From Chitinophaga pinensis (GTDB taxonomy: Bacteria > Bacteroidota > Bacteroidia > UBA4408), in NCBI GenBank assembly GCA_945861665.1, contig CAMAVS010000001.1:210403-274402 (forward strand): DNA of 64,000 bases, in the 5' to 3' direction. The notes under the pieces were generated by a model. It did no database searches, was not told the origin of the DNA, and was given only the letters and a program-made list of their open reading frames with translations. Below are positions 28,919 to 51,399 of the stretch, piece after piece (the first letter of the stretch is position 1; each line of letters opens with the position of its first letter). Both the position numbers and the translations under genes were made by a program.

Positions 28919-29743
28919 ATGAAAAAATTAACACTTTTTTGTTCAGTCGCTATTTTAGTGATTTTAACAAAACCGGCTGCGGCTCAAACTGAGGTTACAT
29001 TTTATACGACAATGGGAAACTTTGTTACCCAGATGTACGACTCAATGCAGCCCATTACCAGTGGAAATTTCAAAACATTAGTAGCCGCAAAATTTTATGA
29101 TGGTGTAATATTTCATCGAGTTGTTGCAGGTTTCGTAATACAAGGTGGTGACCCAACAGGTGTAGGCAATGGAGGACCTGGTTATGCTATACCCGATGAG
29201 TTTGATGCCAATGCACACAACGTTCAAAAAGCACTTGCTATGGCAAATTCAGGGCCCAACACAGGGGGCAGCCAATTTTATATAAATATGGTAAACAACC
29301 TTTTCCTTGACCCCAATTATCCTGTTTTTGGAATCGTCATTTCAAATTTTTCAGTAGTACAAGCAATTGAAAATGTGGCGGTAAATGGACAAGACAGGCC
29401 ATTAGTAAATGTGGTTATGGACAGTGTAAGAATAACTTATAATCCGGCAGGAATTGCTACAGAACGACAAAATAATTTAGAATTAAGTATTGGTATTTTC
29501 CCTAATCCGGCAAACAATGAAAGTGTTATTTCAATTTATACTACTACTCATAAAACTGTAAATGTTGCTCTATACAATCAACAAGGAATGTCAATCTACA
29601 ATCAACAGAAACAATTATCAAATACAGTAAACGACATTTTATTGAATGAAATGAGTAAGGGCAATTTAGCCACAGGGGTTTATTATATTGTAGTTACAGA
29701 CGACAAATCGCTTAGAAAACAAAAGTTTGTGGTGGCAAAATAA
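28919..29743 (+). CDS. Secreted cyclophilin-type prolyl isomerase with T9SS type A tail
   Basis: A 274-residue protein. The signal peptide ends KPAAAQ. Residues 25-165 are a cyclophilin-type peptidyl-prolyl isomerase: YDGVIFHRVVAGFVIQGGDP with the catalytic Arg near residue 66, then ANSGPNTGGSQFYI near 109 and PVFGIV near 137. Residues 190-274 are a type A sorting domain (IGIFPNPANNES, VNVALYNQQG, GVYYIVV, ending KQKFVVAK). The tail would send the isomerase across the outer membrane instead of leaving it in the periplasm. The fold calls are firm; extracellular location is inferred from the tail. Confidence 0.92.
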   Translation: MKKLTLFCSVAILVILTKPAAAQTEVTFYTTMGNFVTQMYDSMQPITSGNFKTLVAAKFYDGVIFHRVVAGFVIQGGDPTGVGNGGPGYAIPDEFDANAHNVQKALAMANSGPNTGGSQFYINMVNNLFLDPNYPVFGIVISNFSVVQAIENVAVNGQDRPLVNVVMDSVRITYNPAGIATERQNNLELSIGIFPNPANNESVISIYTTTHKTVNVALYNQQGMSIYNQQKQLSNTVNDILLNEMSKGNLATGVYYIVVTDDKSLRKQKFVVAK

Positions 29744-30478: not shown

Positions 30479-32902
30479 CTATTTACAATTAGCCTTAATA
30501 TAATCCTCCTTTACAAAAGGATTATCGAGTACTTGAAAGGTTATATATGGATCACCAAACAACTCACAATAACGACTCGAATTCACTTTTTGCGCCTTGC
30601 GCATAGCACTCACAAACATCCTTGATTTTAGTCTTTCAGGAATCTGTGCACACAATGAAATATAGGTAAACAATAATTGTTCGTCAACCTTTTCTTGTTC
30701 AATGTATGGTTCCAATAAAGAAACGGCAAACTTATAATCCTTAAAGTGTTCAAAAACATATGCTAGCTTTAACGAGTTTTGCCACGATGCTTCTTTAAAA
30801 TTATAAAAGGACTTTATTTTATCGATACAGACTTGTATTTGAACTTCGGCATTTTCCATTGAATCTAATACATCCATCACTTTAAACTGAAATTCAATGT
30901 TCAATCCGTCCACAAACTTTTTGGGAATAGCAGAAGTGTACAGACCATCAATTCGTCTTTGTACATCAGCCTGTTCTTTTGCATCACCCAGATCGTCAAA
31001 CTTGAGATAGCAGAACAAATTATTAAATGTAATAATAGTGTTTGAGGGGTCTAGTTTCGAAATCACTTTTAGCTCTGCATAGTTTTCTTCCGTTACTTTA
31101 TTATTTGCTAACTGGTAACCCATTACCACTTGATTATTCAATATTCCCGAATACTTTGCTTCCTTTGGAATTTCCAATTTAGCCCAACTATTATCCATAG
31201 TATATTTACCCTTTCGGATATTCGTTGAAATAAAATATTGGATTTTCATTGCCTGACGCGTATCCGATTTTTTAACTGCTTTGTTAAACTGAACCACAGC
31301 AAATTTCTCCTCCTTCTTTCCTTTTATATCGTAGGTAATATCCATAACAATTTGAGCAAACCTCTCCTTTGAAAGATATTGTTCCAAATCTTTTGCCAAT
31401 CCTTTTGAATTTATTTCTTTTATAGCATCACGCTTACTCATCTTGGTTAAATTATCCCATTGATTTCCCTCTAACTCCAAACGGAATAAATCCCAAGAGT
31501 CATTCGTTTTAATACTAGATGAAATGGGTGAAGACTGTATGCTTTTAAAAGCAGAAACAATACTTTCAGCACGTTTCATTTGAAGGTTTGCATTGGCTAA
31601 AGAATCGCCCTCAATAGATGAGTAAGCATAAATATGCAATCCCTCAATGATAAAATCTGGTTCTTGCAAAGCCGTCAGAAATGGTTGCATATCCTCCAAT
31701 TTATAATCGTATTTATTCTTTTCAAAAGGTACCACAAAGTTAAGTACAGTTAATTCCAAATTAGGCACAAAAGGGGGATTTAAATAGATAGTACTATCGG
31801 GCATAATTAACATTTGCAAAGGAGTGTTAGAGGCTTGATCTCCTGCTTCTAAATACGAGCGCATTATGGTAAGGCATACTTTATTGTCCTGTATAATAAG
31901 TAAATTCATTTCATAACCTTCCTCTAATTTTTCAGGTAAGGTTCCAAAACACACTTCAAGTGATGTTGGTGTACGACCTTTTTTAGTAGGCTTTACTAAA
32001 TTTTTTTTATAAATATCGGAAGAGTAAACCTTCTTGAGCAATATACCTTTACTCACTAAATTATTATCCAGAATATTATACTCCTGTTTTTCATATTGTT
32101 GTTTTTGAATAATATCAACGGCTAAACCATCTTTGGGTTTGCGTATCAATTTTTTAAAAGCACGAAGATTGTCGTATCTTAAATATACTTTGTTATTTCT
32201 AACATATAAACCTTTTTGCAAGTTAACATAGTCCTTGTAACGATCACAATTCTTACATTCAGCTATATTGACTGGCGACTTTAACTTCTTCACCTTTTTG
32301 GTATAAGGCAAATCAAGCTCTTTTCTTTTATCAGCTCCTAGATTAAAAGTATTATAACTTCCGAAAACTACCGAAATATAAATTTTTTTCTTGTCGGCAT
32401 CCATTCTAGCATAGACTCCTGCGTACATAAAATTGCCATTTAGAATGATAGGCTTATCCTTTTTAGAAACTTTCCATTTGGCAAAAACATCTTCAGCAAT
32501 TTTTTGAGGCTTAAAATCATCTTTTCCATTTGATGCAGCAACTGCAATTACTATTTCTTCAGCATTTTTAGTTCCCAAAAAGGCTGTAACTTTTTTTGAA
32601 GTGGTTTTATATTTTTTACTTCCTTGCAACAAACTTACCTCACCTTTTTTTGCCATAGCTTCAGCTTGATTACTTGCTGCCAATTCTAAAATATCGTTTA
32701 TTTCAAGCGTATCTACTAATGCTTCTTTGCGCATTTTATTTATTCCCTCAATGAGCATTTTCTCTAATTCCTCATAATTAAATTCTGCATCATCACGAGA
32801 ACGTAATTTTGGGGAATCCTTATCATTGCCTGAAAATGAATTTGTAACTGCCGTAAAAAGAAAGCAAACTAGTATAAGAATATTATGTGTTTTATTGGTC
32901 AT
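30479..32902 (-). CDS. Exported protein with degenerate CAP domain and OmpA-like region
   Basis: An 807-residue protein with a signal peptide (residues 1-25). Residues 40-180 look like a CAP/SCP domain: INKMRKEALVDTLEINDILE, then ASNQAEAMAKKG, and FAKWKVSKKDKPIILNGNFM with GVYARMDADKKKIYISVVFG. The histidines of the usual CAP site are missing. A segment near 420-470 resembles an OmpA-like fold (IIEGLHIYAYSSIEGDSLAN, then AESIVSAF). The C-terminal third is helical, TPR-like. No named family was recognised for the whole. It probably resides in the periplasm and could bind peptidoglycan, but this is inference. Confidence 0.65.
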   Translation of the reverse strand: MTNKTHNILILVCFLFTAVTNSFSGNDKDSPKLRSRDDAEFNYEELEKMLIEGINKMRKEALVDTLEINDILELAASNQAEAMAKKGEVSLLQGSKKYKTTSKKVTAFLGTKNAEEIVIAVAASNGKDDFKPQKIAEDVFAKWKVSKKDKPIILNGNFMYAGVYARMDADKKKIYISVVFGSYNTFNLGADKRKELDLPYTKKVKKLKSPVNIAECKNCDRYKDYVNLQKGLYVRNNKVYLRYDNLRAFKKLIRKPKDGLAVDIIQKQQYEKQEYNILDNNLVSKGILLKKVYSSDIYKKNLVKPTKKGRTPTSLEVCFGTLPEKLEEGYEMNLLIIQDNKVCLTIMRSYLEAGDQASNTPLQMLIMPDSTIYLNPPFVPNLELTVLNFVVPFEKNKYDYKLEDMQPFLTALQEPDFIIEGLHIYAYSSIEGDSLANANLQMKRAESIVSAFKSIQSSPISSSIKTNDSWDLFRLELEGNQWDNLTKMSKRDAIKEINSKGLAKDLEQYLSKERFAQIVMDITYDIKGKKEEKFAVVQFNKAVKKSDTRQAMKIQYFISTNIRKGKYTMDNSWAKLEIPKEAKYSGILNNQVVMGYQLANNKVTEENYAELKVISKLDPSNTIITFNNLFCYLKFDDLGDAKEQADVQRRIDGLYTSAIPKKFVDGLNIEFQFKVMDVLDSMENAEVQIQVCIDKIKSFYNFKEASWQNSLKLAYVFEHFKDYKFAVSLLEPYIEQEKVDEQLLFTYISLCAQIPERLKSRMFVSAMRKAQKVNSSRYCELFGDPYITFQVLDNPFVKEDYIKANCK

Positions 32903-32997: not shown

Positions 32998-33672
32998 CTA
33001 TTCAGAAGTTTGACTTTCATTCACATGGGAAGATTCATCTTTTTTTTTTAAAATAAATCTTATTTTCGCTTCCTTTTTATTAAACAAACGTTCAATATTT
33101 TTTTGATGAGTAACCAGTACCATTACAAAAACAACCAAAGAAAATAAAGCCATAGAAGGAATGGTTGTATGAAAAACTACAATTACCATTATTGGAAATG
33201 ATAAAGCTCCGGCTATTGAACTTAGTGATACATAATTGGTAATTAAAAAAACGGTTAAAAAAACGACAATCGACACGAGTGCGGCATCCAAATTAAGTGC
33301 TAATACAATTCCCAGCATAGTTGCAACTCCTTTACCACCTCTAAATCCAACATAAACAGGAAAAATATGACCTATTAAGGTAGCTACACCCAGTGCTAAT
33401 TGTAAATTAATAAATTCCTCAGATTGTAAATTTAAATCGATCATATACCGAATACAAAAAACAGGCAGCCATCCTTTTAAAATATCTATTATAAGAACAG
33501 GAATACCTGCTTTTTTACCCAATACCCGAAACGTATTTGTAGCTCCGGCATTACCACTACCAAACTCACGCACATCAATATTGTAGAACATCTTACCAAT
33601 CCAAACTGAAGATGGAATAGAGCCCATTAAATAAGCTATGATAAGAGCTAATATATTAATAGGTGAAATCAA
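32998..33672 (-). CDS. plsY: Glycerol-3-phosphate acyltransferase PlsY
   Basis: A 224-residue integral membrane enzyme that transfers acyl from acyl-phosphate to glycerol-3-phosphate, the first step of phospholipid synthesis. The three PlsY motifs are seen: YLMGSIPSSVWIGK near residue 14, FGSGNAGATNTFR near 37, and FPVYVGFRGGKGVATMLG near 104. Five transmembrane segments are expected. Its start overlaps the stop of the giant upstream gene by 4 nt, so they are translationally coupled. Confidence 0.96.
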   Translation of the reverse strand: MISPINILALIIAYLMGSIPSSVWIGKMFYNIDVREFGSGNAGATNTFRVLGKKAGIPVLIIDILKGWLPVFCIRYMIDLNLQSEEFINLQLALGVATLIGHIFPVYVGFRGGKGVATMLGIVLALNLDAALVSIVVFLTVFLITNYVSLSSIAGALSFPIMVIVVFHTTIPSMALFSLVVFVMVLVTHQKNIERLFNKKEAKIRFILKKKDESSHVNESQTSE

Positions 33673-36600
33673 TTCGTTTCAAATTTACGTATAAAATCAG
33701 TTTTTTTCCTAACCGTAGATAAATTAAACTGATAAGCTGCTTGCCCTTTTTCCTTTTCCATTTTTCTTTTATCAGGCTTTAATTCCTTTATGGCTGTATT
33801 AAATTTCTCATCACTTGAAAGTGCTTGCATTAGTCCTGTTTGGTAATTAAAGTAATACCAATTATTATCGTCAACGGATAAATATATATTCAAAATATCA
33901 CCACTTCTCTTTTTAATCAATTCAATACGCCCCTTGACCATTTTATTCAATTGATTTTTATTGATACTTCCAATACCAATATCGCCAACAGAAACATACG
34001 ACTTGGTTTCTGTATTCCATTTCATTTTCACATCGGTTAATAATAAGGTGTGTTCCAACTCATTTGGAAAGCGTTTGAAAGACCCATATAAATTTAATTG
34101 TGATATTAATTTATCGGCCTCCTCTTTACCAATCATTTCTCTTAACGATCTTTCGTAAGTAGGTCGATTTAAATTAACACCTTTCAATGCTGTTGCCGAT
34201 TCAAACTTTTCAGTCATCATTTTTAGACAGCTATTCTCAAAAAAGAAATCCAAGGCCAATACTACATCAAAGTAAATCGAGTCATTAATTAAGTTATGGC
34301 TTCCATTTCCTACAGCTTTCAATTTAACTTGACCCAAGGTAGTATTAGCAAAATCGAGTTTTCCCTCTCCATAAACAATGCAACTAGCGCTGTTTAAACC
34401 AAGTAAATTTCCTGGTGAATTAATCTCCCTTAATTTATCCTTGTTAGATATTTGATATTCACGACTTCTCTTATCAAAATACAAAAATCCATCAGCTACT
34501 AATACTTCTTGATCGCTATAACTCATTTTGCGCGACAAGAAAGAAGAGTAAACGTGTGCTGAATCGTTTGTAACCATCATTCCTGCAAATACTTTTTCAT
34601 TGACATCGCTTTTTAAATCTTTGGCTATTGGAATAAAAATGTTTTCAGGATCTACTTCACCTTCAAATTTTATCCAACTTATTCCAAGTTTTTCGCAGGG
34701 GTGCTGTATTCTGCAAGCACCATCAAATGCCAAATATTCATTGCTTGCGATTAAAGTCACCTTTCCTTTATAGTCAAAATTAGGACTCAATGTAAACTTT
34801 AAACTATCCGATATTACTCCCTTTGCTATAGTTTGTCCGGTAGTATCAGATACTATTGTAGGAAAAAACAATTGCTGCCTACCTTTTAATTCATCAATAT
34901 AATCATAGTAACCTGCTCCTGAATAATTTTTTCGACCAAAAATAGATGCTGTTACTTTATACAGTGAATGGTACTTTGTTACAACGTTTGCTAATATTTT
35001 GGAATTCTTAAACGTTTCAAGTTCCGCCTTTTTATAAATCACAACCTTCCCATTATCGGGATACAATCGAGCATCAGCAACATTTATGTATTTCACATCT
35101 TTGCAATGTATGATATGATTTTTAAGGTCATAACGTGCTGAAGGGCTGTAGAAACGCAATGAATCTTGTTTTGGGTGCACAGAGATAAATTCCGAACCGC
35201 TGAGTTGTAAATCGGCCAAATCTTCATTTGCCGGAGCATTCACATTTATTTTATTTGAAGCGCTTAACTCAATGACTGCTTTATCTATAAACCACGTAAA
35301 CTCGTCCATAAAAGCAATGTACTGATTGACAGGGAATTTAACATAGTCTCCACCACCATTCGATTTAAATTTACCTTCTCTCTTATCAAAATCAACGTGC
35401 GCATTCATGTTTTTTGTATCGAATGCAATAGCTGAAATATCTGTATTTAAAGATTTTAAACGAAAATCTGCAGTGTCGGCATCAATAATCATTTGCTTAA
35501 AATGCATATTACTTGACTCCAACTCTGCATCTAAAAAATCCATTCTGCCTCTGCCCAACATGCCATTTGGGGTAAGTACACTGGTACCGTTCAACTCTGC
35601 TTTTCCTTCAAAAAACACTAAAGCTTTTCTAATTTTGGAAGTATTCATATATTCACTGTTCGGCATCCAATGAACATATACTGAATCACCTTTCACGGAA
35701 GGGAATTCTATTTGCCCTGCTGTTCGTTTATTATGAAAACTTTGAGCCACCGTATTCATTGAATCGGGATAAAATATAAAGTCTTTTGATTTAGTAAGAG
35801 AAGTAATATATTCCAAATCACCATCTCCGCGTAAACCTTGGTTACTCATTCTAATCTGATTGGTAAACTTACCACCTTTTGTACCATAGGTTACTATCCC
35901 ATCAGGTCCAGTATTCCTTTTAAAGCCTAAAGAATAATCTTCTTGTAATCGCAAAATTTCGTCAAAATCAGGGAAGATTCCTCCTGATGAAAACTCCCCT
36001 TTAAACGCAAGCGCTTCATTGGTAAAGTTATCCAAACTATCAACTATAAATGGTTGTAAGTGAAAGCCAACCTTATCACGGGTATAAACACCACCTTGAA
36101 TTTTTTTCTTATCCCAATAAGCATAAGAGTCCTTTAAACAATTAAAAATTGGATATTCGGGATAATTTGCTCTTCCCGATTTATTCACAGGATTATCAAT
36201 GATCAAGTTACCGTTCACATTTTCAATAACTGTTTTTACAGATACGAGTGGAGCATTCCCATTTTCATCCACATCCCTTGATTTTACTTTAATCCGCAAT
36301 GAATCAGTATTCACTAAATTAAGCTTAAATGCATCGTACTCAAACGAAAATTCTTTTCCATAAAAATCAAAACGACCTGCGTGAATAACACCTGCGAATG
36401 CAAAATCACGATTCTGCTTCATAATAATCTGTCCTTCCTTTGGATTAATGTAAACACTTTGCGAATCGCTTAGGTATATTTTATCGATGCCGAATATTTT
36501 TAAGTCGAAATTCAACAAATTAATTTGTGCATTATTTTGCGAACCGCTTAAAATGGATTTGAATTCTATTACATCGTAATCCTTTTTACCAAAATTATTC

Positions 36601-38168
36601 GCAATATAATCCGTCAATCTATCTTTCAATATTATTTTATCCTCACCTATATTAAAATTAACAAAACCTGCTGTAGCGAATTTCATTAATAAAGGTCTAA
36701 CCTGGTCAGGCGACAATTTCATATTTTTTGATAAACCTTCAACATCCAACTCTTTTGAGCCACCCATTTTTTTTGAATAATCACGTATTTTTAAAAAAGG
36801 GTGTACATCGTCCAATCCTTGTATTTTTTCGTAACGTATTCCTCTGAAATAATTAGAAGATTCAAATACGGCTTCACTTTGAGAACTACCTTGCATTGTA
36901 CGGAAATCTATTTTAGGTTGATCTAACTTCCAAAGCAACACTTCAAAGTACATATCTACTTTGTGATAACTATCGTAATAGGGACTTCTAGCAATACCTT
37001 GTTCATCACGAATCAAGGTTAATTCCTTTTCCTTAAAAATAAATTTCATTTGCAATCCGGGATGATAAATTGAGTCCTTATCATAGTAAATAGCTATTGC
37101 AGCTCTATCACTCGAAATACGGTCGGTACGAATAATAAAACTCTTTGATTTGGCTAACATAAACAATTTTTTGTTTCTGTAAAATTTAACCATTGCAGGA
37201 TTTTCACTATCACCTGAACCTATAACTTTAGCGCCTTTAACAGAAAATCCACCATCGTAGTCAACATCCTCATAAATATTTTTCAATTGAAAGCGTTTGC
37301 TGTATGAATCAAATTGAGGATAGGTAAATGCTTCTTCATTTACCCCAGTAAGTACTTTGTCAGTAAGCCTACCCAATAAAGGTCTCTCAAAATATATTTT
37401 GTTATAATACAAGACCGAATCGGCAATATATTGAGACGATTTGAACATAATGTTGTATTTTTTCAGCTCAGCGTAATTCGAATTATCATCCAATCCAGCT
37501 CTTTTCCAATCCACTTTACCACCTGTGCCTACCCATTTTTCGAGTGTAGGATAAAATACACCTTTCGTTTCATTTATCCACATACTATCGTTTTTCGAAT
37601 AACATACCAAACGCAAGTTTGATAAAAACACAACTCTTGGAATGGTATCATACTCAAAAGTGTAGTTATTATTATCAGTACGCCATCTGGTGGTGGCTGA
37701 TTTAAAGATAGTATTGTCGGTAAACAAGTTATTACTCATCGCTAAAAACGTTTGGAATTTAGGGGTTGATTTTCCATTCATAATTTTCTCCAAGGTTTTT
37801 TTCCAAGCTATATAACTAGCTTCACTTTGATTACCAGATTTTGTAAAGTTATGCATCGAAGACAGAAAGTTTTGAAAATCCGGAAAAGCTTTCAACCGCT
37901 TTTTTAGCATGCCATTGCATACCTTGTATATAAACTTTTTGTCATCATCCGTTAACCTATCCGAATTCCAAAACAAGGTATATTCCTCCATATAATCCCT
38001 TCCAGATTTTTTATCTACTGCTTCAAAAAAATCAGTTACCTCTTTTATAAAAACAATATTGTCTTCTGTAAAACTTTTAATTTGCTGAGCCTTTACATAA
38101 AAGGATTGTAAAAATAAAAAAACTAAAAAAAATAGTATATATCGCTTTAGAAGTATATTTCGTATCAT
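33669..38168 (-). CDS. Giant exported protein of unknown function
   Basis: A 1499-residue protein. The ATG at 38168 is preferred over one 33 nt upstream because it begins the signal peptide MIRNILLKRYILFFLVFLF (cleavage after FYVKAQ) and avoids overlap with prmA. Almost the whole mature part is predicted beta-rich, with many repeated strand patterns (for example ARYDLKNHIIHCKDVKYINV and GRGRMDFLDAELES) that recall OstA/LptD-like beta-jellyroll or AsmA-like bridge proteins. No domain was recognised with confidence. It sits 2 nt after prmA and overlaps plsY by 4 nt. A role in envelope lipid handling is a guess from this context. Confidence 0.7.
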   Translation of the reverse strand: MIRNILLKRYILFFLVFLFLQSFYVKAQQIKSFTEDNIVFIKEVTDFFEAVDKKSGRDYMEEYTLFWNSDRLTDDDKKFIYKVCNGMLKKRLKAFPDFQNFLSSMHNFTKSGNQSEASYIAWKKTLEKIMNGKSTPKFQTFLAMSNNLFTDNTIFKSATTRWRTDNNNYTFEYDTIPRVVFLSNLRLVCYSKNDSMWINETKGVFYPTLEKWVGTGGKVDWKRAGLDDNSNYAELKKYNIMFKSSQYIADSVLYYNKIYFERPLLGRLTDKVLTGVNEEAFTYPQFDSYSKRFQLKNIYEDVDYDGGFSVKGAKVIGSGDSENPAMVKFYRNKKLFMLAKSKSFIIRTDRISSDRAAIAIYYDKDSIYHPGLQMKFIFKEKELTLIRDEQGIARSPYYDSYHKVDMYFEVLLWKLDQPKIDFRTMQGSSQSEAVFESSNYFRGIRYEKIQGLDDVHPFLKIRDYSKKMGGSKELDVEGLSKNMKLSPDQVRPLLMKFATAGFVNFNIGEDKIILKDRLTDYIANNFGKKDYDVIEFKSILSGSQNNAQINLLNFDLKIFGIDKIYLSDSQSVYINPKEGQIIMKQNRDFAFAGVIHAGRFDFYGKEFSFEYDAFKLNLVNTDSLRIKVKSRDVDENGNAPLVSVKTVIENVNGNLIIDNPVNKSGRANYPEYPIFNCLKDSYAYWDKKKIQGGVYTRDKVGFHLQPFIVDSLDNFTNEALAFKGEFSSGGIFPDFDEILRLQEDYSLGFKRNTGPDGIVTYGTKGGKFTNQIRMSNQGLRGDGDLEYITSLTKSKDFIFYPDSMNTVAQSFHNKRTAGQIEFPSVKGDSVYVHWMPNSEYMNTSKIRKALVFFEGKAELNGTSVLTPNGMLGRGRMDFLDAELESSNMHFKQMIIDADTADFRLKSLNTDISAIAFDTKNMNAHVDFDKREGKFKSNGGGDYVKFPVNQYIAFMDEFTWFIDKAVIELSASNKINVNAPANEDLADLQLSGSEFISVHPKQDSLRFYSPSARYDLKNHIIHCKDVKYINVADARLYPDNGKVVIYKKAELETFKNSKILANVVTKYHSLYKVTASIFGRKNYSGAGYYDYIDELKGRQQLFFPTIVSDTTGQTIAKGVISDSLKFTLSPNFDYKGKVTLIASNEYLAFDGACRIQHPCEKLGISWIKFEGEVDPENIFIPIAKDLKSDVNEKVFAGMMVTNDSAHVYSSFLSRKMSYSDQEVLVADGFLYFDKRSREYQISNKDKLREINSPGNLLGLNSASCIVYGEGKLDFANTTLGQVKLKAVGNGSHNLINDSIYFDVVLALDFFFENSCLKMMTEKFESATALKGVNLNRPTYERSLREMIGKEEADKLISQLNLYGSFKRFPNELEHTLLLTDVKMKWNTETKSYVSVGDIGIGSINKNQLNKMVKGRIELIKKRSGDILNIYLSVDDNNWYYFNYQTGLMQALSSDEKFNTAIKELKPDKRKMEKEKGQAAYQFNLSTVRKKTDFIRKFETN

Positions 38169-38170
38169 AA

Positions 38171-39007
38171 TTATTTTTTCATAAAATGAGTTAATGCCCA
38201 AGTGTTCATTGTTTTAATTGCGATAAACTTTAGGCCAAGTTCTTCAGCACAATTAGTAATACTATCAACATCAACATTAAAAAAACCGCTCATCAATAAT
38301 TGTCCATCCTTTTTTAATGCCTTTACATATTCTGTCATATCCTTTAGTAATATATTTCGATTAATGTTTGCTAAAATTATGTCAAATTTTTCTGCATTGA
38401 GTATAGATGCATCCCCCAATTTAACATCTATTTTTTCACAATTATTCAACAAGCAATTTTCTTTTGAATTAGTATATGCCCACTCGCTATTATCAATGGC
38501 ACATACATACGATGCCCCTTTTAAGAATGAGAGTATTGCCAATACGGATGTTCCACACCCCATATCGAGTATATTTTTATCCGTAACATTCAACTTTAGC
38601 AATTCAGTAATCATCATAGATGTAGTTTCATGGTGACCGGTACCAAATGACATTTTCGGTTCTATCACTATATCATAGTCAACATTATTGTTCAACGTAT
38701 GAAAAGGAGCACGAATTGCGCAAAGATTATCAATTACAATTGGCTCAAAACTATCTTCCCAAGATTTATTCCAATTTTGTGCAGAAATAATTTTATATTC
38801 ATATTGGATATTGCAACCGTTCGAAACAATTTCTGCGATACATTGTGCAACTGTTTCATTGTTAAAATCGCCCGCTTGCGCATAGCCCAATACACCTGTT
38901 TCTGTTTCTACAAAACTCTCAAATCCAATTTCTGCTAACTCAACTGTAAGCACTTCGCTAAAAGGCTCCAATGGGTTCACCACAAAATTCGCTTCAATAT
39001 AATCCAT
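38171..39007 (-). CDS. prmA: Ribosomal protein L11 methyltransferase
   Basis: A 278-residue SAM-dependent methyltransferase. The conserved FGTGHHETTSMM near residue 125, the SAM motif LDMGCGTSVLAILSF near 145, and FDIILANINRNILL near 207 are PrmA hallmarks. It trimethylates L11 of the large ribosomal subunit. It heads the prmA - giant protein - plsY operon. A -7 element lies 18 nt upstream. Confidence 0.94.
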   Translation of the reverse strand: MDYIEANFVVNPLEPFSEVLTVELAEIGFESFVETETGVLGYAQAGDFNNETVAQCIAEIVSNGCNIQYEYKIISAQNWNKSWEDSFEPIVIDNLCAIRAPFHTLNNNVDYDIVIEPKMSFGTGHHETTSMMITELLKLNVTDKNILDMGCGTSVLAILSFLKGASYVCAIDNSEWAYTNSKENCLLNNCEKIDVKLGDASILNAEKFDIILANINRNILLKDMTEYVKALKKDGQLLMSGFFNVDVDSITNCAEELGLKFIAIKTMNTWALTHFMKK

Positions 39008-42378: not shown

Positions 42379-43623
42379 TTAAACCTTTTTACTTTGTGGC
42401 AAATGCCTTGAAGCAAACAAGGTATAAAAAAAAGCATAAAAAACTACACCTGCTTGGGTTTCAAACATACTTTCGAATAGGAAGTTCAATGATACAAGTA
42501 AAATAAAAAGCATAAATAAGTACTCCTTGTTTTTTAGGAACGTGTATATTGGATAGAGTAACATACCTATAAACAATATTAAACCGGGTATTCCAATTGC
42601 CAAAGCTGTTTGCAAGTATTGATTGTGACAATTCAAGTGTTTTTTGGCAGCAATAAGCATTCCTGTATTTTTATATTCTTCCATCAACACGGCTTTTACA
42701 TCCCCTACTCCAACACCAAATGGATGCTGATGGATTAGTCTATAAGAAGCTCTCCATATCTTCACCCTTTCACTAGTACCTTCACCATTTTCCTTTTTAG
42801 AATTATTGATGTTTTCTACGGCAGTAAATGCTGCTTTTAATCTGCTATAGGGATATGGAGCAATTTTTGGTAAGAGTATAATTACCGCCATAATAAATAA
42901 AATACTTACTGAAGATAGCAGTATTTTCCTTTTCACAAACATTAAATACAACAAAGAAAATAGTATCAGAAAAATAATTGAAAATATTCCACTTTTTGAA
43001 GATAACATTACAATAACAACAGAAAAGAATGCATAAATAAACAATCTGATAAATTTATTACAAAAAAGAGAAGTTTTTAAAGTACAACTATTAAAATCAA
43101 ACAGGCACAATAGTATGACTATACTAAAGACAAGATACATTGCTAAATAACTTGGGTGAAGAGCATAAGACAATGAAGTGTAGAAAAAATTATCACTTTC
43201 GAAAGAAAAATAATACTTCACACTTGCTAAAAACAATGCAACAGTACAAGCTGCTATACAACCCTCTACAAAACTAATCAGTATCTTTTTATAATCGCAT
43301 TCTCGAAAGTCTTGATGCAGACATACAAACAGTGGAAACAATAATAAAGAAAGCTTCACTTGGAGATCGAACCAAGCAACCTGTTTATTTTCGGAAAAAA
43401 AAACACTTACAAAATAAAAACCGTACAGAATAAGCGGCAAATAGAAGATTGGTTTTTTAATTGTTTTAAGGAATCCCTTTTGATAATTACCAGCAAAAAG
43501 TACACTTATAAAAAAAAGTAAAACAAATAAAGAAACCAATTTAGCACTCAGTGGAAGGGTAAATGCAATTAAATGGGTTAGGTAATATGGTGCTTTTTTA
43601 GTTATTTCACGTATAATTTGCAT
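42379..43623 (-). CDS. O-antigen ligase-like membrane protein
   Basis: A 414-residue polytopic membrane protein of the O-antigen ligase/polymerase (Wzy_C) superfamily. The family region is near residues 295-345: HQHPFGVGVGDVKAVLMEEY followed by KKHLNCHNQYLQTALAIG. About eleven transmembrane segments are seen. Such proteins either ligate O-antigen to lipid A core (WaaL) or polymerise repeat units (Wzy). It lies at the edge of the polysaccharide locus, separate from the overlapping six-gene unit, which has its own homologue. Confidence 0.8.
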   Translation of the reverse strand: MQIIREITKKAPYYLTHLIAFTLPLSAKLVSLFVLLFFISVLFAGNYQKGFLKTIKKPIFYLPLILYGFYFVSVFFSENKQVAWFDLQVKLSLLLFPLFVCLHQDFRECDYKKILISFVEGCIAACTVALFLASVKYYFSFESDNFFYTSLSYALHPSYLAMYLVFSIVILLCLFDFNSCTLKTSLFCNKFIRLFIYAFFSVVIVMLSSKSGIFSIIFLILFSLLYLMFVKRKILLSSVSILFIMAVIILLPKIAPYPYSRLKAAFTAVENINNSKKENGEGTSERVKIWRASYRLIHQHPFGVGVGDVKAVLMEEYKNTGMLIAAKKHLNCHNQYLQTALAIGIPGLILFIGMLLYPIYTFLKNKEYLFMLFILLVSLNFLFESMFETQAGVVFYAFFYTLFASRHLPQSKKV

Positions 43624-43642
43624 TGAGTAAAAATACGCATTT

Positions 43643-44872
43643 ATGTTTAATGGATTAAAATATGTGAAGTTAGGTTTGGTGATACTTGTTTATGTATTAG
43701 CTTTTCCATTTGGTTACCATAAAAATATTGATGTAATAGATGGTTATACGAACAAACTGACGGTATTGAAAGGTGATAGTATAACTGTTTATATGGATTG
43801 CAAAGAAAAAAACAGAAGGGGGCAATTTATTTTATATGATATACTGGGAAATGCTATTGATTCAATTATTACAACTTGTGACACAAAAAAACATTCCGAT
43901 AATAATGCTTTTGATTACAAGCCAACTTTTTGTTATTATACCGGTAAGCTAAAAAGTGGTGTGTACGCCTGGAACAAATCAGCCCCTTTTATTGTATCGG
44001 ATGTTCAGCCTTGTGATATCACAATTGTATTCCCTTCACTGAATAACATCGCAAACAATGAACTTAATAAAAACAACTCACTCCAAACAATAAATATTCA
44101 AAGTGCTGCTGATAACATTGACTCCTACTTCATTAATTTTTTAAACTGGTTTAAAAACAATGAAAAACAACATACCGTAAATTTTATTAGTGATGCAGAT
44201 TTGGAAGATTATTCCAAATTTAAAAATACAAAAGTCTTGATTTTTGCTTCAAACTATTTATTTTGGACAAAACCAATGAAACAGAACTTTGACAAATATA
44301 TACAAAGTGGTAAAAATGCGTTGATTATTTCAAGCACCTTTATGGTAAATGAATTCAGCTTTAATATAAAGCAATGGCAAATCACACTTGAAAGAACACA
44401 AGAACGCGCTTCGTCCCCCATAAATACTTTCAACAGTAAAACAAATAAAAACTATAACAGTGTTGGATGTTCTTATGAAAACCATATTAGCAAATTACCT
44501 ATATATAATAATAATCATTTTATGACTATACAAAACAATAAGCATAAAATTTTCACCGGACTTTCGCAAAAAAAATATATAATTATAGCTTATTCTGGCA
44601 GCTGTCCACCTCTGAAAAGCATTGACGAAATGGGCATTCCGCTTTATGACTTTGCACTTTTACAGCAAGGTATTCTTACCTGTCTCGCTTTTGGATACCG
44701 CTCTATTTATGAACAACAATCTATATGGGGTATATACGAATTCAAACAATCCACAAGTAGCGGTAAAATAATAAATATAGGGCTTGCAGACTGGTTTAAC
44801 AATATAAACTTAAAAAAGAAGTATGTATCGGATATTACAAAAAATTGTATTGAATATTTAAATGAAAATTAA
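43643..44872 (+). CDS. Membrane-anchored or exported protein of uncertain function
   Basis: A 409-residue protein starting with a hydrophobic segment (residues 8-25), a signal anchor or signal peptide. Residues 35-125 form a beta-rich module (YTNKLTVLKGDSITVYMDCK and TGKLKSGVYAWNKSAPFIVS). The C-terminal part (QQGILTCLAFGYRSIYEQQS, GIYEFKQSTSSGKIINIGLA) resembles N,N-dimethylformamidase large-subunit-like proteins, which are often found near surface polysaccharide genes. That likeness is weak. The gene is divergent from the ligase-like gene, with only 19 nt between them, and converges on the glycosyltransferase gene. Confidence 0.5.
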   Translation: MFNGLKYVKLGLVILVYVLAFPFGYHKNIDVIDGYTNKLTVLKGDSITVYMDCKEKNRRGQFILYDILGNAIDSIITTCDTKKHSDNNAFDYKPTFCYYTGKLKSGVYAWNKSAPFIVSDVQPCDITIVFPSLNNIANNELNKNNSLQTINIQSAADNIDSYFINFLNWFKNNEKQHTVNFISDADLEDYSKFKNTKVLIFASNYLFWTKPMKQNFDKYIQSGKNALIISSTFMVNEFSFNIKQWQITLERTQERASSPINTFNSKTNKNYNSVGCSYENHISKLPIYNNNHFMTIQNNKHKIFTGLSQKKYIIIAYSGSCPPLKSIDEMGIPLYDFALLQQGILTCLAFGYRSIYEQQSIWGIYEFKQSTSSGKIINIGLADWFNNINLKKKYVSDITKNCIEYLNEN

Positions 44873-44874
44873 TT

Positions 44875-45903
44875 CTATCTGCTTAAATTATTACTACTAT
44901 TTCTAGGTTTATTTCTCAAAAAAACAAAATTTACAATACCTTCTAAATAGCCTAATCCATAACTAAAATGAAGAATAAAAAAAGCAAATACAATTTTAAC
45001 AATCTCATTAAAACTGTCGTATTTTCTTGCAGCAAATATTAATGCTAATCCAAGATAAGCTATTAATCCAATCAAATAAATTGGCAAAAGTATTTTAAAG
45101 AAAAAACAAATTATAGCACCAAAAAACAACAAACAAACAAACATTGCCGGAACTAATTGCCTTATCGTAGTAACCGTTTTATGCTTAACATTAACGTATA
45201 CTTTCCAATAACCATATTGAAAGTACTGCTTATATAACTTCCAAAAAGAAGCTCGTACAAAATATTTCGATTTAACTTTTTTAGACAAATAGATCCTAAA
45301 ACCATTTTTAATTAGTCTAAAATTAAATTCATCATCTTGATTCCTTACCAAGTCTTCATCAAAATAACCCACTTTCTCAAAAACTTCCTTTTTATAAGCT
45401 CCAAAAGCTACTGTATCAACATACCCTTCTGCATTACCAGTTCTAAAATAGGCGTTACCTACTCCAAAAGAAGAGGACATTGCTTTAGAAATTACAGCTG
45501 TGACTTTATCTTCTATTACATTTTCTAATATTCCACCAACACATCCTATTTCTTTTGAAATTTCAAATGCATTTAAACATTCATTAACATAATCGGTAGA
45601 AATTTCAGAATGCGCCCCCAGTATAATTTTAATATCGGCATCACTTTTCTTTAATCCAAGGTTTAAAGCAAACTGTGTCGTTTTTTTTTCATTTAGTAGC
45701 ATTTTAATAAAAGAATATTGTTCCTCATAGTTCTTTATAATTGCAATAGTATTATCATCACTTAAACCATCGCATACAAATACTATCAATTTATCTTTGG
45801 AATAACTACAATTAACTATTGAATCGAGGCATTTAGCAATATACTTTTCCTCATTTCTACAAGGAATAGTGATTGATACTTTTATATTACTGCCCAAAAT
45901 CAC
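44875..45903 (-). CDS. Glycosyltransferase family 2, ExoA-like
   Basis: A 342-residue GT-A glycosyltransferase. The nucleotide-sugar site is SITIPCRNEEKYIAKCLDS near residue 11 and VFVCDGLSDDNT near 41. GVGNAYFRTG, DTVAFGAYKKEVFEKVGYFD and RNQDDEFNFRLIKNG (near 188) match succinoglycan ExoA-type enzymes. Three C-terminal transmembrane segments anchor it. It is the last gene of the six-gene unit and shares a 4-nt overlap with the gene upstream. The sugar transferred is unknown. Confidence 0.88.
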   Translation of the reverse strand: MILGSNIKVSITIPCRNEEKYIAKCLDSIVNCSYSKDKLIVFVCDGLSDDNTIAIIKNYEEQYSFIKMLLNEKKTTQFALNLGLKKSDADIKIILGAHSEISTDYVNECLNAFEISKEIGCVGGILENVIEDKVTAVISKAMSSSFGVGNAYFRTGNAEGYVDTVAFGAYKKEVFEKVGYFDEDLVRNQDDEFNFRLIKNGFRIYLSKKVKSKYFVRASFWKLYKQYFQYGYWKVYVNVKHKTVTTIRQLVPAMFVCLLFFGAIICFFFKILLPIYLIGLIAYLGLALIFAARKYDSFNEIVKIVFAFFILHFSYGLGYLEGIVNFVFLRNKPRNSSNNLSR

Positions 45904-47015
45904 GATAACATTGATTTATAAAAATTCAATAATTTCTTTTCCTCAATCTCCCAATTAAATTTCAATAACACTGATTGGCGCCCTCTCTGCCCCATTTCTA
46001 TTGACAATTTATCATTCTCTAACAAATAATCTAAAGCGCTTGCTATTTCATTTTCATTTTTAGGGTCCACAAATACTGCGCAACTTTCATTTTTCAATAA
46101 TTCTATCCAATATGGAAAATTTGATACAACAAGTGGTAAACCACAAGCCATATATTCAAACATCTTTATAGGTAAAGAATCAAGATAATTAGAAGTTGGA
46201 TACAAAGTTACTAATCCAACTTTGGATACTGAAAGCATTTTTTTCACCTCTTGCCTACCAACAAAACCAACATAATTTACACTTTTCCATCCTTCTAAAT
46301 TTGCAACAACATCTTTAAGTGCTATAGGGGAAAAATCACCTGCTAAATTCAGTATCACTTTACTTTTACACAGAGGTAAAGCCTTTACTAGCTCAACAAT
46401 ACCTCTCTCCTTTGTAATTCCCCCAATATAAACCACCAAATTTTCCTTCTTTGCCAAGCTGGGTAAGTTTGATAATTCTTCCAGTAGTGGATAATTGTTA
46501 ATATCAACTGTATTGAAATTTATTTTTTTAAATCTATCGCGAATAAAAGGCGTTGCGGCAACAACTCCATCTAACCTTTTTACAATAAAATCCTCAAATA
46601 CCTCGGCAAAGATTGAAATTACTTTTCTTGCTGGAGTTGGTATCCAATACTTCGTTAGTATCTGCCTTGGAAGATCTTCGTGTGCATCAAATAAAACTTT
46701 GTTTTTTTTATTTTTAAGAAAAAGTGCTATGAACAATAATTCAGGATCGTGTAAGTGGTAAATATCCGATTTCTGAGACTTCGCAACCTTATACACACGG
46801 TAAACAGTTTTGATGATGCGTCCAATTCGACTATTAATATTAGAGGAGACACCAATAATATTAACATTATTAATATTTTCTGAAATAGCATTTGCAACCA
46901 CAAGATTTACCTCAAAACCATTAGATGCAAGCGAACTACACTCCTTTAATAATATTCTCACATCATTCGATTTATGAACCGAAGTAATATGACAGACTGA
47001 GTATTTTGTAATCAA
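45900..47015 (-). CDS. Glycosyltransferase family 4
   Basis: A 371-residue GT-B glycosyltransferase. LHDPELLFIALFLKNK near residue 92, VVYIGGITKERGIVELVKAL near 199, and the donor-binding LDSLPIKMFEYMACGLPLVV near 282 with an E-x7-E pattern mark family 4. It acts on an undecaprenyl-linked saccharide on the cytoplasmic side. Overlaps of 4 nt with both neighbours indicate a single transcript and coupled translation. Confidence 0.88.
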   Translation of the reverse strand: MITKYSVCHITSVHKSNDVRILLKECSSLASNGFEVNLVVANAISENINNVNIIGVSSNINSRIGRIIKTVYRVYKVAKSQKSDIYHLHDPELLFIALFLKNKKNKVLFDAHEDLPRQILTKYWIPTPARKVISIFAEVFEDFIVKRLDGVVAATPFIRDRFKKINFNTVDINNYPLLEELSNLPSLAKKENLVVYIGGITKERGIVELVKALPLCKSKVILNLAGDFSPIALKDVVANLEGWKSVNYVGFVGRQEVKKMLSVSKVGLVTLYPTSNYLDSLPIKMFEYMACGLPLVVSNFPYWIELLKNESCAVFVDPKNENEIASALDYLLENDKLSIEMGQRGRQSVLLKFNWEIEEKKLLNFYKSMLS

Positions 47016-48040
47016 TTGATTCTATTATAAAGTGAGATGTACTTATCTGAATTGGCTTTTTTAGTAGCATTTTCAAGTACAATTTGTTTGTTAACAATAA
47101 GATAGTCACTGGTAAAAGAAATAACTTGCTGAAAAAAATCACTTTCAACATCTTTTAAAATAATGCCATTTTTACCATTTGTAATCCATTCGCAATTAGC
47201 TTGCAAATCAGACAATATTGGAAGACAACCTGCCGACATTGCTTCAAGTAAGCTGATTGAAGTTGCATCGCTTTCCGGAATAGAAACATATACTTTTGCC
47301 CGACAATAAAAATCCTCGTTTATTTCCTTTTTTATCCATCCGGGAAAACTCACCCTATCCTCAATACCTAATCGATTCACAAGCAACTTTATCTTTTCAG
47401 TTTGACTACCCACAGCAGCCACAACCAATTTCCAAGTAGGGTTATTCTTTGAAAACAAATGAAAAGCATATATAATTTTATCTATACGATACAATGGATT
47501 ATGTAGCCTATTAGAATAAATAATATCCTCTTTTACTCGATTACAAGGAACAATATCAATTCCAAAATTTGCAATTAAAATATCTAATTTTTTTTCCGCA
47601 AACTCACTCATTTTTTCTGCCATATAAACGGAATCTGAAGTGAAATAACTACAATGCATTAGTATATACTTAACCATATACCTATAAAACCGATTTTTAT
47701 AAGGGTTAACTAAAATATCACTCCCCCATGCTGTGAAAACTATTCGAGACTTTATTTTATAGGACAGTAAAACAGCAAAAGTAGCAGTGTTGGCTTGATG
47801 ACAATGAACAATATCAGGATTAAAATCTGAAATGATTTTTTTTACAGGAGCCAAACACTTAATGAAGCATACCGGATTTTTGATGGAGAAATTAAACTCA
47901 ACTTGTTCAACTGGTATTAAATCGTTACGAATATCTGTTATAATAAGGATTTCTGAAAAATAATCCTTTACCAAACAATAAAAATTAAAAGTATGAATAC
48001 TATTACTTGATACCAACAAAAGTTTTTTACTTTTTTTCAT
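47012..48040 (-). CDS. Glycosyltransferase family 4-like
   Basis: A 342-residue GT-B protein. DIVHCHQANTATFAVLL near residue 76, AWGSDILVNPYKNRF near 107, FPGWIKKEINEDFYCRAKVY near 232, and SDATSISLLEAMSAGCLPIL near 256 are the expected family features. Its start overlaps the polymerase-like gene by 14 nt. The sugar donor cannot be read from sequence. Confidence 0.85.
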   Translation of the reverse strand: MKKSKKLLLVSSNSIHTFNFYCLVKDYFSEILIITDIRNDLIPVEQVEFNFSIKNPVCFIKCLAPVKKIISDFNPDIVHCHQANTATFAVLLSYKIKSRIVFTAWGSDILVNPYKNRFYRYMVKYILMHCSYFTSDSVYMAEKMSEFAEKKLDILIANFGIDIVPCNRVKEDIIYSNRLHNPLYRIDKIIYAFHLFSKNNPTWKLVVAAVGSQTEKIKLLVNRLGIEDRVSFPGWIKKEINEDFYCRAKVYVSIPESDATSISLLEAMSAGCLPILSDLQANCEWITNGKNGIILKDVESDFFQQVISFTSDYLIVNKQIVLENATKKANSDKYISLYNRIN

Positions 48041-49349
48041 TTGCTTCAGCTGAAAAATTACATCCCATCAAAAGCATAATCAAAAAGAGCAAAAAAGGAG
48101 ATGATATTGGATTGTTAGTTAAAGAAGAAATATTAATAATGATAAATACACAAGTCAAGATTAAAGTTCCTCTACTATTTCTATTTTTAAAGTACAACAT
48201 AAATGGAAAAAGCACAAGTAAAGTATAATTTACAAGACCCACCAATCCATATCGCCAAAAATTAAGTAAAAACTCGTTCTCAGAATAAATCGTATTCGAA
48301 TAAAAATAGCCCTTATAAGGGCCATAGCCCAATACAGGTTTTTTAATAGCCATTGCAAAAAGTTCACGCCATATTTCAAATCTTCCTTTCAACGATTCAT
48401 TATTTGACTCAAATTTAAAATCACCATCCGCACTCTGAAAAGCCTTTTTTCGTTTATCAACTTCATTTTTTGCAATTGCAATAGTATTTTTGGAAGTAGT
48501 AATTTTCAATTGTTTTAAGGTATGCAAATACCGCAAATCGGCATTTAAAAAATAAACAACCACAATAAAAAGTGAAATAATAAACGGCATAAAAGAGACT
48601 ATTAAATTCTTTCTATCAACAATAACATAAAATACTAGGGCCAATGCTAATCCAATAAAAGTAGTACGCGATTGCGATTGAATACATGCAATAGAACAAC
48701 AAGTAAAAAGAATATAATTTACGATTTTTATTTTTTTATTTTCGGTTTTTATTGCCAAAAAATAAATAGATAAACACGCAAAGAGAATAGCATTGTTATT
48801 AGGATTCCCTAAGGTTCCGAGTAACCTTTTGGTAACAGGCTCAAACAATGTATTGTATCCAAAATAAATCAAATGATGCGGAGGTGCATAATGCACTTCA
48901 ACATAAATATTAAAATCCCAAATATCGAAATATTGAAATAAATTAAAGATAAGTAGTCCAAATGTGGCAATTGCAAGTGGAAAATAAGTGTTAATTTTTT
49001 GGGTGTTAAGAATTAGAAAAAAAGAAAAGAGAACAATTGCTTTTATAGGTTTATAAATCTCAAAAAGATCGCTCGTTGAAGTATGATAAAGATTAAATAA
49101 AATTGACAGTATAATTACAATTACAAAGCATAGCCACAAACCAATGTATTTTTTAATCTCCTCGTAATTTCTAGCATCCACTATCAATTTGTAATTTTTA
49201 ATTACGTAAAGCGCAATGAAAGGAAAAAGAAGGTCTTCTAGCCTAAACTTAGGCATAGATGAAAGTATCTTTATTTCAGGAATTAAAAAAAGTGTAATTA
49301 TAAAAAAAAACAAAGCAATATTGTAATGTTTTTTATTCAGTTGCATCAT
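48027..49349 (-). CDS. O-antigen polymerase/ligase-like protein (Wzy candidate)
   Basis: A 440-residue polytopic membrane protein with about eleven transmembrane segments. A long periplasmic loop near residues 280-345 precedes RFEIWRELFAMAIKKPVLGYG and SENEFLLNFWRYGLVG, the pattern of the Wzy_C/O-antigen ligase superfamily. Position inside the flippase-glycosyltransferase unit favours a Wzy polymerase role, with the separate gene at 42379 then being the ligase candidate. Sequence alone does not separate the two. Confidence 0.75.
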   Translation of the reverse strand: MMQLNKKHYNIALFFFIITLFLIPEIKILSSMPKFRLEDLLFPFIALYVIKNYKLIVDARNYEEIKKYIGLWLCFVIVIILSILFNLYHTSTSDLFEIYKPIKAIVLFSFFLILNTQKINTYFPLAIATFGLLIFNLFQYFDIWDFNIYVEVHYAPPHHLIYFGYNTLFEPVTKRLLGTLGNPNNNAILFACLSIYFLAIKTENKKIKIVNYILFTCCSIACIQSQSRTTFIGLALALVFYVIVDRKNLIVSFMPFIISLFIVVVYFLNADLRYLHTLKQLKITTSKNTIAIAKNEVDKRKKAFQSADGDFKFESNNESLKGRFEIWRELFAMAIKKPVLGYGPYKGYFYSNTIYSENEFLLNFWRYGLVGLVNYTLLVLFPFMLYFKNRNSRGTLILTCVFIIINISSLTNNPISSPFLLFLIMLLMGCNFSAEANEKK

Positions 49350-50122
49350 CGTTTAAGTATTATAATAGATAATTTTTTTTGAATATTTAATGGTCCCACT
49401 TCTAAAATAAAATCATTCGAATTATCTATTCTATTTTTACCTTTCTTAATTAACAGCAGAAACATAAAATCAAATTTTGATGCCAAAAACACATTAAGTT
49501 TCGAAAAAAGACTCTTATACAATACCCCTGTTGGATTATTTGGCACATCCATTGAATATTTTTTTTCAACTATCAAACCTACATATTTAAATAAACTTGA
49601 CCATTTTTCTGATGTGTTAAATTTTTGATAATTATTTTGATCACTTTTTTCTGCAACAAATTCGATCAATACCAAATATCCATTTGGGGATAAACTATTT
49701 TTGAGTTTTTGTAAAATCAGTTCCAGTTTCATTTCATCCAATATATGGCCCAACACTGTTATACTTAATATTAAATCGTGACGCTTTGTCTCTAAGCGAA
49801 TATTAAGTTGTTCTTCACTGCTTGAATAAATAATATTACTTAGAAGCCCCCTTTGCTGCCCTGCTCTTTTAATAACTTCATCCGCAATATCGTAAGAAAA
49901 AACATCCTTTGCAAAAGACCCAAGCAATTTTGAAAAATCACCTATTCCACAACCATAATCCAAGGCATTTTCAATTGAAGTTTTATCGAATAAGTCTTTT
50001 ACGATTTTTCTTATTACTTTTAATCGTGCATATTGATCGAGAGTATATACATACCGATTCATCCAACCAGTATGTCCTACTTGTTGTACCCTATTGTTCC
50101 AATACAGCTTTAAATCATTCAA
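49346..50122 (-). CDS. Class I SAM-dependent methyltransferase
   Basis: A 258-residue methyltransferase. SAM motif I is ALDYGCGIGDFSKLLG near residue 53; later motifs include VFSYDIADEVIKRA and LILSITVLGHI, followed by SPNGYLVLIEF. It lies between the flippase and the polymerase-like gene with 4-nt overlaps on both sides. Chain capping or methylation of a sugar in the repeat unit is the natural inference. Confidence 0.85.
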   Translation of the reverse strand: MNDLKLYWNNRVQQVGHTGWMNRYVYTLDQYARLKVIRKIVKDLFDKTSIENALDYGCGIGDFSKLLGSFAKDVFSYDIADEVIKRAGQQRGLLSNIIYSSSEEQLNIRLETKRHDLILSITVLGHILDEMKLELILQKLKNSLSPNGYLVLIEFVAEKSDQNNYQKFNTSEKWSSLFKYVGLIVEKKYSMDVPNNPTGVLYKSLFSKLNVFLASKFDFMFLLLIKKGKNRIDNSNDFILEVGPLNIQKKLSIIILKR

Positions 50123-51399
50123 TTGGTATGTTTTAAAAGACTTAACATCCAGCGTATTTCAAAAACAAAATACACGCACAAGCTAATACTAAGCAGATAA
50201 ACTGTTTTTTCAAAATCTTTTAAATATAGGCCGCCAATAATAATAACAACAATGTATATTGAATTATTGATTAAGCTCAATAAAAAGTGCGACTTTTGTT
50301 GGCTCTTCACCAATGTTAATTGACTAATAATTGCTGAAATAAAATTTAAAAACAAGAACGGAATTAAAATCTGAATATATTTACCTGCTACATGCCACTC
50401 ATTGCCTAAAAAATATTTAAAAGCTAAAGGTACAACTAACATAGCAAATAAGGCTAAAGGTATTCCTAACAAACATATAAATCGTATCATTCTATTGGTC
50501 GAAACAATTAATAAATTTGTGTCATTGTGGTGAAGCTGTGCGGCTTTTTGAAAATAAACCTGGCTAATGGATTTTGACATAAGCGATAACGGTGTTTGAA
50601 CCAAGCGAAGACCGAATGCATAATACCCAACATAGGTTTTATCAAAATAATGAGTCATTAATAATATAAATGCTATTGCCTGCAAACTATCAGTAAGTGC
50701 ATGAATCATATTAACAGTAGGAAAATCACTATATCGAAGTGCAATTGATTTGGTTTCTTTCCAATTTTTAAAAGCACTAAACATATCCATAACAGAATAT
50801 ACTTTAAACGAAATGATAATCACAGAAATGCCTGTTCCTATAATAGTACCTAACAGCAGGCCCATTGCACCATAACCTAAATAACCAAACCAAACAGAAA
50901 ATGCTATTAAAAAAAAACTTTGAGCAACCTTTGCAATACTTTGATTCACATAGTTACGCATCCTATTTAACCAAGAGGTAAGGACCTGATTAAAAGCATA
51001 CAAAAAGAGATAAGCGGGAATTAATAGCAAAAGACTTTCTGAACCAAGGTGAAAGTACTTATCAACCCAAGCGATATTTGAGAAGCAAATAAGAATAAAA
51101 ATAAATAAGGATGCAATTGCTGTTAAAAAGAAAATCATATTAAACAACAATTGGGCATTGCTATCTTCCTTTGGCAATAAAATAGCAAACTCGTACCTAA
51201 AAGTGCAAAGTAAAACTAAAAATGCAAGGTATTTATTTATCAACTCAAATGTACCAAAACTGTCCGCACCATAATAATGCGTAAGTAAGGGAGCCGCAAA
51301 AAACGAAATTATTTGGGAAATTAATGTCCCTATAAATAAGATTAAAATATTTTTTCCGAATGCATTTGCAAACAGAATTTTTTTTATTTTAAATAGCAT
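50119..51399 (-). CDS. Polysaccharide flippase (Wzx-like, MOP superfamily)
   Basis: A 426-residue polytopic protein with about twelve transmembrane segments. ILILFIGTLISQIISFFAAP near residue 17 and HYYGADSFGTFELINKYLAF near 40 are characteristic of polysaccharide-biosynthesis flippases. It moves lipid-linked repeat units across the inner membrane. It heads the unit of six overlapping genes and lies 65 nt from the stop of rny, without a clear terminator or promoter in between. Confidence 0.85.
   Translation of the reverse strand: MLFKIKKILFANAFGKNILILFIGTLISQIISFFAAPLLTHYYGADSFGTFELINKYLAFLVLLCTFRYEFAILLPKEDSNAQLLFNMIFFLTAIASLFIFILICFSNIAWVDKYFHLGSESLLLLIPAYLFLYAFNQVLTSWLNRMRNYVNQSIAKVAQSFFLIAFSVWFGYLGYGAMGLLLGTIIGTGISVIIISFKVYSVMDMFSAFKNWKETKSIALRYSDFPTVNMIHALTDSLQAIAFILLMTHYFDKTYVGYYAFGLRLVQTPLSLMSKSISQVYFQKAAQLHHNDTNLLIVSTNRMIRFICLLGIPLALFAMLVVPLAFKYFLGNEWHVAGKYIQILIPFLFLNFISAIISQLTLVKSQQKSHFLLSLINNSIYIVVIIIGGLYLKDFEKTVYLLSISLCVYFVFEIRWMLSLLKHTN

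Follow-up and report, generated by a model that had tools for sequence, protein, structure and literature searches.

The window analysed here, 64,000 nucleotides of Chitinophaga pinensis DNA, contains an intact open reading frame on the reverse strand that runs from an ATG at 38168 to a TGA at 33669 and encodes a 1,499-residue protein with homologues, hereafter X. Upstream lies prmA (38171–39007, reverse strand; NF001785, E 3e-102), the end of which is separated from the start of X by 2 nt, and downstream lies plsY (32998–33672, reverse strand; TIGR00023, E 9e-58), the TTG start of which shares a 4-nt overlap (TTGA, 33669–33672) with the TGA stop of X, in agreement with the spacing given in the original prediction. 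X is a genuine gene and is conserved far beyond chance, since relatives with roughly 25–55% identity were found in 54 of 60 related genomes by protein search, and profile matches were found in 323 of 395 sampled Bacteroidia genomes (about 80%), covering 159 of 197 genera.

The count was low, 15 of 393 genomes, in a phylum sample rich in a few large families, because whole families (for example f22, f32, f35, f40 and f49) have no X; the protein is therefore dispensable there. No convincing match was found outside Bacteroidia, where there was one match of 60 positions (E 5e-6). Scans of genome contigs and viral contigs with the single protein found nothing, and a query built from the conserved alignment was needed to detect the 373 relatives present in genome contigs (some from the same genomes). 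These came mostly from environmental Bacteroidota assemblies, with Acidiluteibacter ferrifornacis a cultured organism among the carriers. There is normally one copy of X per genome, G033 having a tandem pair. Distances between X sequences correlated with those between the prmA genes (r 0.86, 78 loci), which fits vertical inheritance. X is an old, strongly conserved, normally single-copy Bacteroidia family.

The commonest gene order around X is DoxX/MauE, ABC permease, tpiA, prmA, X and plsY, and X is linked to genes of a housekeeping operon, tpiA-prmA-X-plsY. We counted neighbours across 111 non-redundant loci, using the testable loci as denominators: prmA adjoined X in 70 of 105 (67%), plsY in 54 of 105 (51%), and both genes flanked it in 40 of 99 (40%). 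The order prmA-X-plsY is thus loose, and the description of X as locked between the two genes was an overstatement. Even within the window's own family, the X genes of genus g5 had no detected prmA or plsY next to them, and plsY lies elsewhere in those genomes. PlsY carries out the first step of phospholipid synthesis, and the synthesis of X had been proposed to be coupled to that step. This was not supported, as plsY is often apart from X and three near-complete genomes with X (G010, G016 and G020) have no PF02660 match; in those three the first phospholipid step must use another enzyme, or plsY was missed. Overlapping reading frames alone do not establish that X and plsY are functionally coupled, and the linkage of X to prmA and plsY is real but loose and says little about function. 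In the ten X-less genomes checked, prmA is flanked by other genes, and a search for a hidden X-like reading frame beside it was negative.

X had also been predicted to be exported, and this was confirmed by a signal peptide conserved across members (residues 1–27, 38088–38168, reverse strand; inferred cleavage A27/Q28). A hydrophobic N-terminal core was present in 124 of 128 members and an A-x-A/Q-like cleavage site in 99. None of the 128 members has a lipobox, and the window protein has no second hydrophobic segment. The conserved signal peptide and the lack of another membrane segment point to a location in the periplasm or beyond, and we infer that X resides in the periplasm. Cys1158 (34695–34697) and Cys1263 (34380–34382, both reverse strand) are predicted disulphide partners. 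Both cysteines occur in 116 members and both are missing in 12, a pattern consistent with disulphide formation in an oxidising compartment; it may also represent a single change, as all 12 members without the pair are divergent.

Searches against Pfam, NCBIfam, PHROG and PDB sequences gave no family match for X, with no Pfam family above the cut-off, consistent with the earlier view that it contains no recognised domain. When 32 diverse members were scanned, there were only scattered weak matches, each confined to one member. Two matches to X itself were rejected because they fell below the cut-off: Pfam C1q (E 0.07), which none of the other members matched, and an NCBIfam flagellar match (E 0.04). 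One alignment of X (A1) was too diverse for pattern analysis. Literature searches on the gene order or fold of X turned up nothing pertinent, the nearest item being a paper on TamL/TamB (PMC12045153).

We modelled X with AlphaFold2 in two overlapping parts, using 66-sequence alignments. The model of residues 28–760 had a mean pLDDT of 90.6 and a pTM of 0.76, and that of residues 430–1499 a mean pLDDT of 88.8 and a pTM of 0.49, the latter leaving the relative placement of domains unsettled, so one continuous groove is not claimed. In the modelled layout (nucleotide positions all on the reverse strand), an N-terminal bundle of six helices (residues 37–151, 37716–38060) is followed by a first beta domain (residues 153–437, 36858–37712) with highly conserved D194, D365, H369, H402 and W413, and by a winged-helix domain (residues about 443–525, 36594–36842). 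From residue 535 on there are many long antiparallel strands, including a run of 12 (residues 747–905, 35454–35930). A helical region (residues 1312–1361, 34086–34235) and a C-terminal beta domain (residues 1373–1451, 33816–34052) follow, and the final element is a helix. These models show the beta-rich body originally described and, together with the conserved signal peptide and the lack of a family match, bear out the view of X as an unannotated, exported, beta-rich envelope protein.

A beta repeat within X was detected by hhalign between residues 544–590 (36399–36539, reverse strand) and 1008–1051 (35016–35147, reverse strand), with a probability of 88 over 44 columns in a single-profile comparison that is not database-calibrated. 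Other non-neighbouring pairs of segments scored below 20, except a 21-column match of residues 465–530 against 1190–1300 (probability 74), which we took as chance.

D365, H369, H402 and W413 are conserved in at least 97% of the 128 members, which would suit an extracytoplasmic enzyme, a hydrolase or lyase with its active site in the first beta domain near D365, H369 and H402. We consider this very unlikely: no enzyme family matched by sequence in Pfam, NCBIfam or PDB, the meaningful Foldseek matches include no enzyme fold, and the conserved positions are mostly Gly, Pro, Asp and aromatic residues, as is typical of structure.

The winged-helix region is occupied in 128 of 128 members, and has a weak sequence hint to TFE; among its Foldseek matches are MarR proteins and TubR (3m9a; TMt 0.67, prob 1.00). 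Winged-helix domains typically work in the cytoplasm, binding DNA or proteins there; the one at 36594–36842 (reverse strand) sits within an exported protein, which makes DNA binding unlikely despite the shared fold.

LptA/OstA and LptC are periplasmic LPS carriers, LptA binding LPS and forming the link between LptC and LptD. Foldseek searches of PDB matched X to LptC (6mit_C; prob 1.00, TMt 0.61, rmsd 3.2, 170 columns) and to LptA (2r19_B and 2r1a; prob 0.99, TMt 0.60–0.61), with E-values near 0.1 in each case, and the N-terminal model also matched LptA (2r1a; prob 0.92, TMt 0.56). We assign the predicted LptC/LptA-like beta-jellyroll to residues 747–905; this assignment is our own, the match range in X not being given by Foldseek. 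Like OstA_2 (PF13100) and LptC, X is exported, and its model may share their local antiparallel beta-jellyroll (TMt about 0.6). It is also enriched in D-S dipeptides, with 9.9 per 1,000 residues against 5.5 expected and eleven conserved positions, compared with 16.6 against 5.0 expected in Bacteroidota OstA. Unlike them, it is about three times as long as OstA_2 here, has extra helical and winged-helix domains and shows no detectable sequence homology, PF13100 being absent from the 32 members. X is best read as a new family on a known fold, the fold itself being a model.

On the structural comparison with OstA, LptD and AsmA strands that had been proposed, local matches of the LptA/LptC type were recovered and a fold of the LptD type was not. 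The lowest Foldseek E-values were mainly to whole LptD (PF19838), but with a TM of about 0.1, and the model of X ends in a helix and has no LptD-type C-terminal outer-membrane beta-barrel. LptD, vitellogenin and ApoB were rejected as fold relatives because their TM values of 0.05–0.16 do not represent real superpositions despite low E-values. In a viral structure library the best match was a chorein-type protein (E 4e-4, prob 0.57, TM 0.13), which is only suggestive.

The AsmA part of that proposal found no sequence support. X is large and beta-rich like TamB and AsmA, close to TamB in length (about 1,500 residues), and the low pTM of 0.49 is as for an elongated protein. Even so, it is highly improbable that X belongs, as a divergent member, to the AsmA/TamB-type bridge proteins. 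The TamB C-terminal domain (PF04357) and the AsmA profile (PF05170) matched neither X nor the 32 members, the D-S enrichment is missing in TamB and AsmA, and X has conserved cleavable sites of the signal-peptidase-I type instead of an inner-membrane anchor. Probabilities from hhalign were below 1 against Bacteroidota TamB and AsmA alignments and at most 1.4 against OstA/LptA alignments, a test that leaves room for very distant kinship because OstA, TamB and AsmA gave no strong matches to one another either (TamB–AsmA, 21). The window genome has its own LptD_2 (G000:C1:183175–184584, separate from X), OstA_2, TamB and AsmA proteins, and X thus adds to, rather than replaces, those systems. TamB is essential in Flavobacterium johnsoniae (PMC12045153).

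Our preferred reading, to which we give a probability of roughly 0.45, is that X, secreted and soluble, is a periplasmic protein of several domains acting in outer-membrane biogenesis. Its central LptA/LptC-like jellyroll would hold a lipid or LPS-like substrate by its acyl chains or, alternatively, dock end-on to other jellyrolls, and the helical bundle and winged helix would be protein–protein docking modules; both the lipid or LPS binding and the docking are putative roles. The same two domains suggest docking and would also suit a scaffold or chaperone that serves outer-membrane proteins or lipoproteins in the periplasm or at the surface, with a jellyroll that binds protein and no lipid. 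A large TPR/PD40 protein, one frequent downstream neighbour of X, would be in line with such a role, but no partner gene was linked to X in all genomes examined, and we regard the scaffold or chaperone as somewhat unlikely. At one locus (L094:11580–17105) there is a 1,841-residue protein with a PD40 repeat, the cluster of which often follows X where plsY is absent.

The presence of a 1,500-residue exported protein without a family model in about 80% of sampled Bacteroidia genomes marks a large gap in knowledge of the Bacteroidota envelope. Of the original prediction about fold and role, the OstA/LptA part was good and the coupling argument was not upheld. If X carries lipid or LPS, as our preferred reading would allow, it would be an extra component of a pathway thought largely complete. 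Part of its predicted shape resembles the proteins that carry LPS to the outer membrane, which makes X a good candidate for an outer-membrane building component that has been overlooked. That X forms the core, in most Bacteroidia, of an undescribed periplasmic lipid or LPS route apart from Lpt, AsmA/TamB and Mla is distinctly unlikely; such a route would have been overlooked because several large, well-sampled families are without X.

A tandem duplication of X at L035:4697–13983 consists of two full-length copies with 77% identity. Elsewhere in the window, plsY is adjoined by a gene for an 807-residue exported protein with a CAP domain (30479–32902, reverse strand), a linkage we did not see at other loci. 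A prolyl isomerase of the cyclophilin type, bearing a sorting tail for type IX secretion, is encoded at 28919–29743 (forward strand), and O-antigen or polysaccharide genes at 42379–51399 (reverse strand) specify two Wzy_C-type proteins, a glycosyltransferase and a flippase-like protein.
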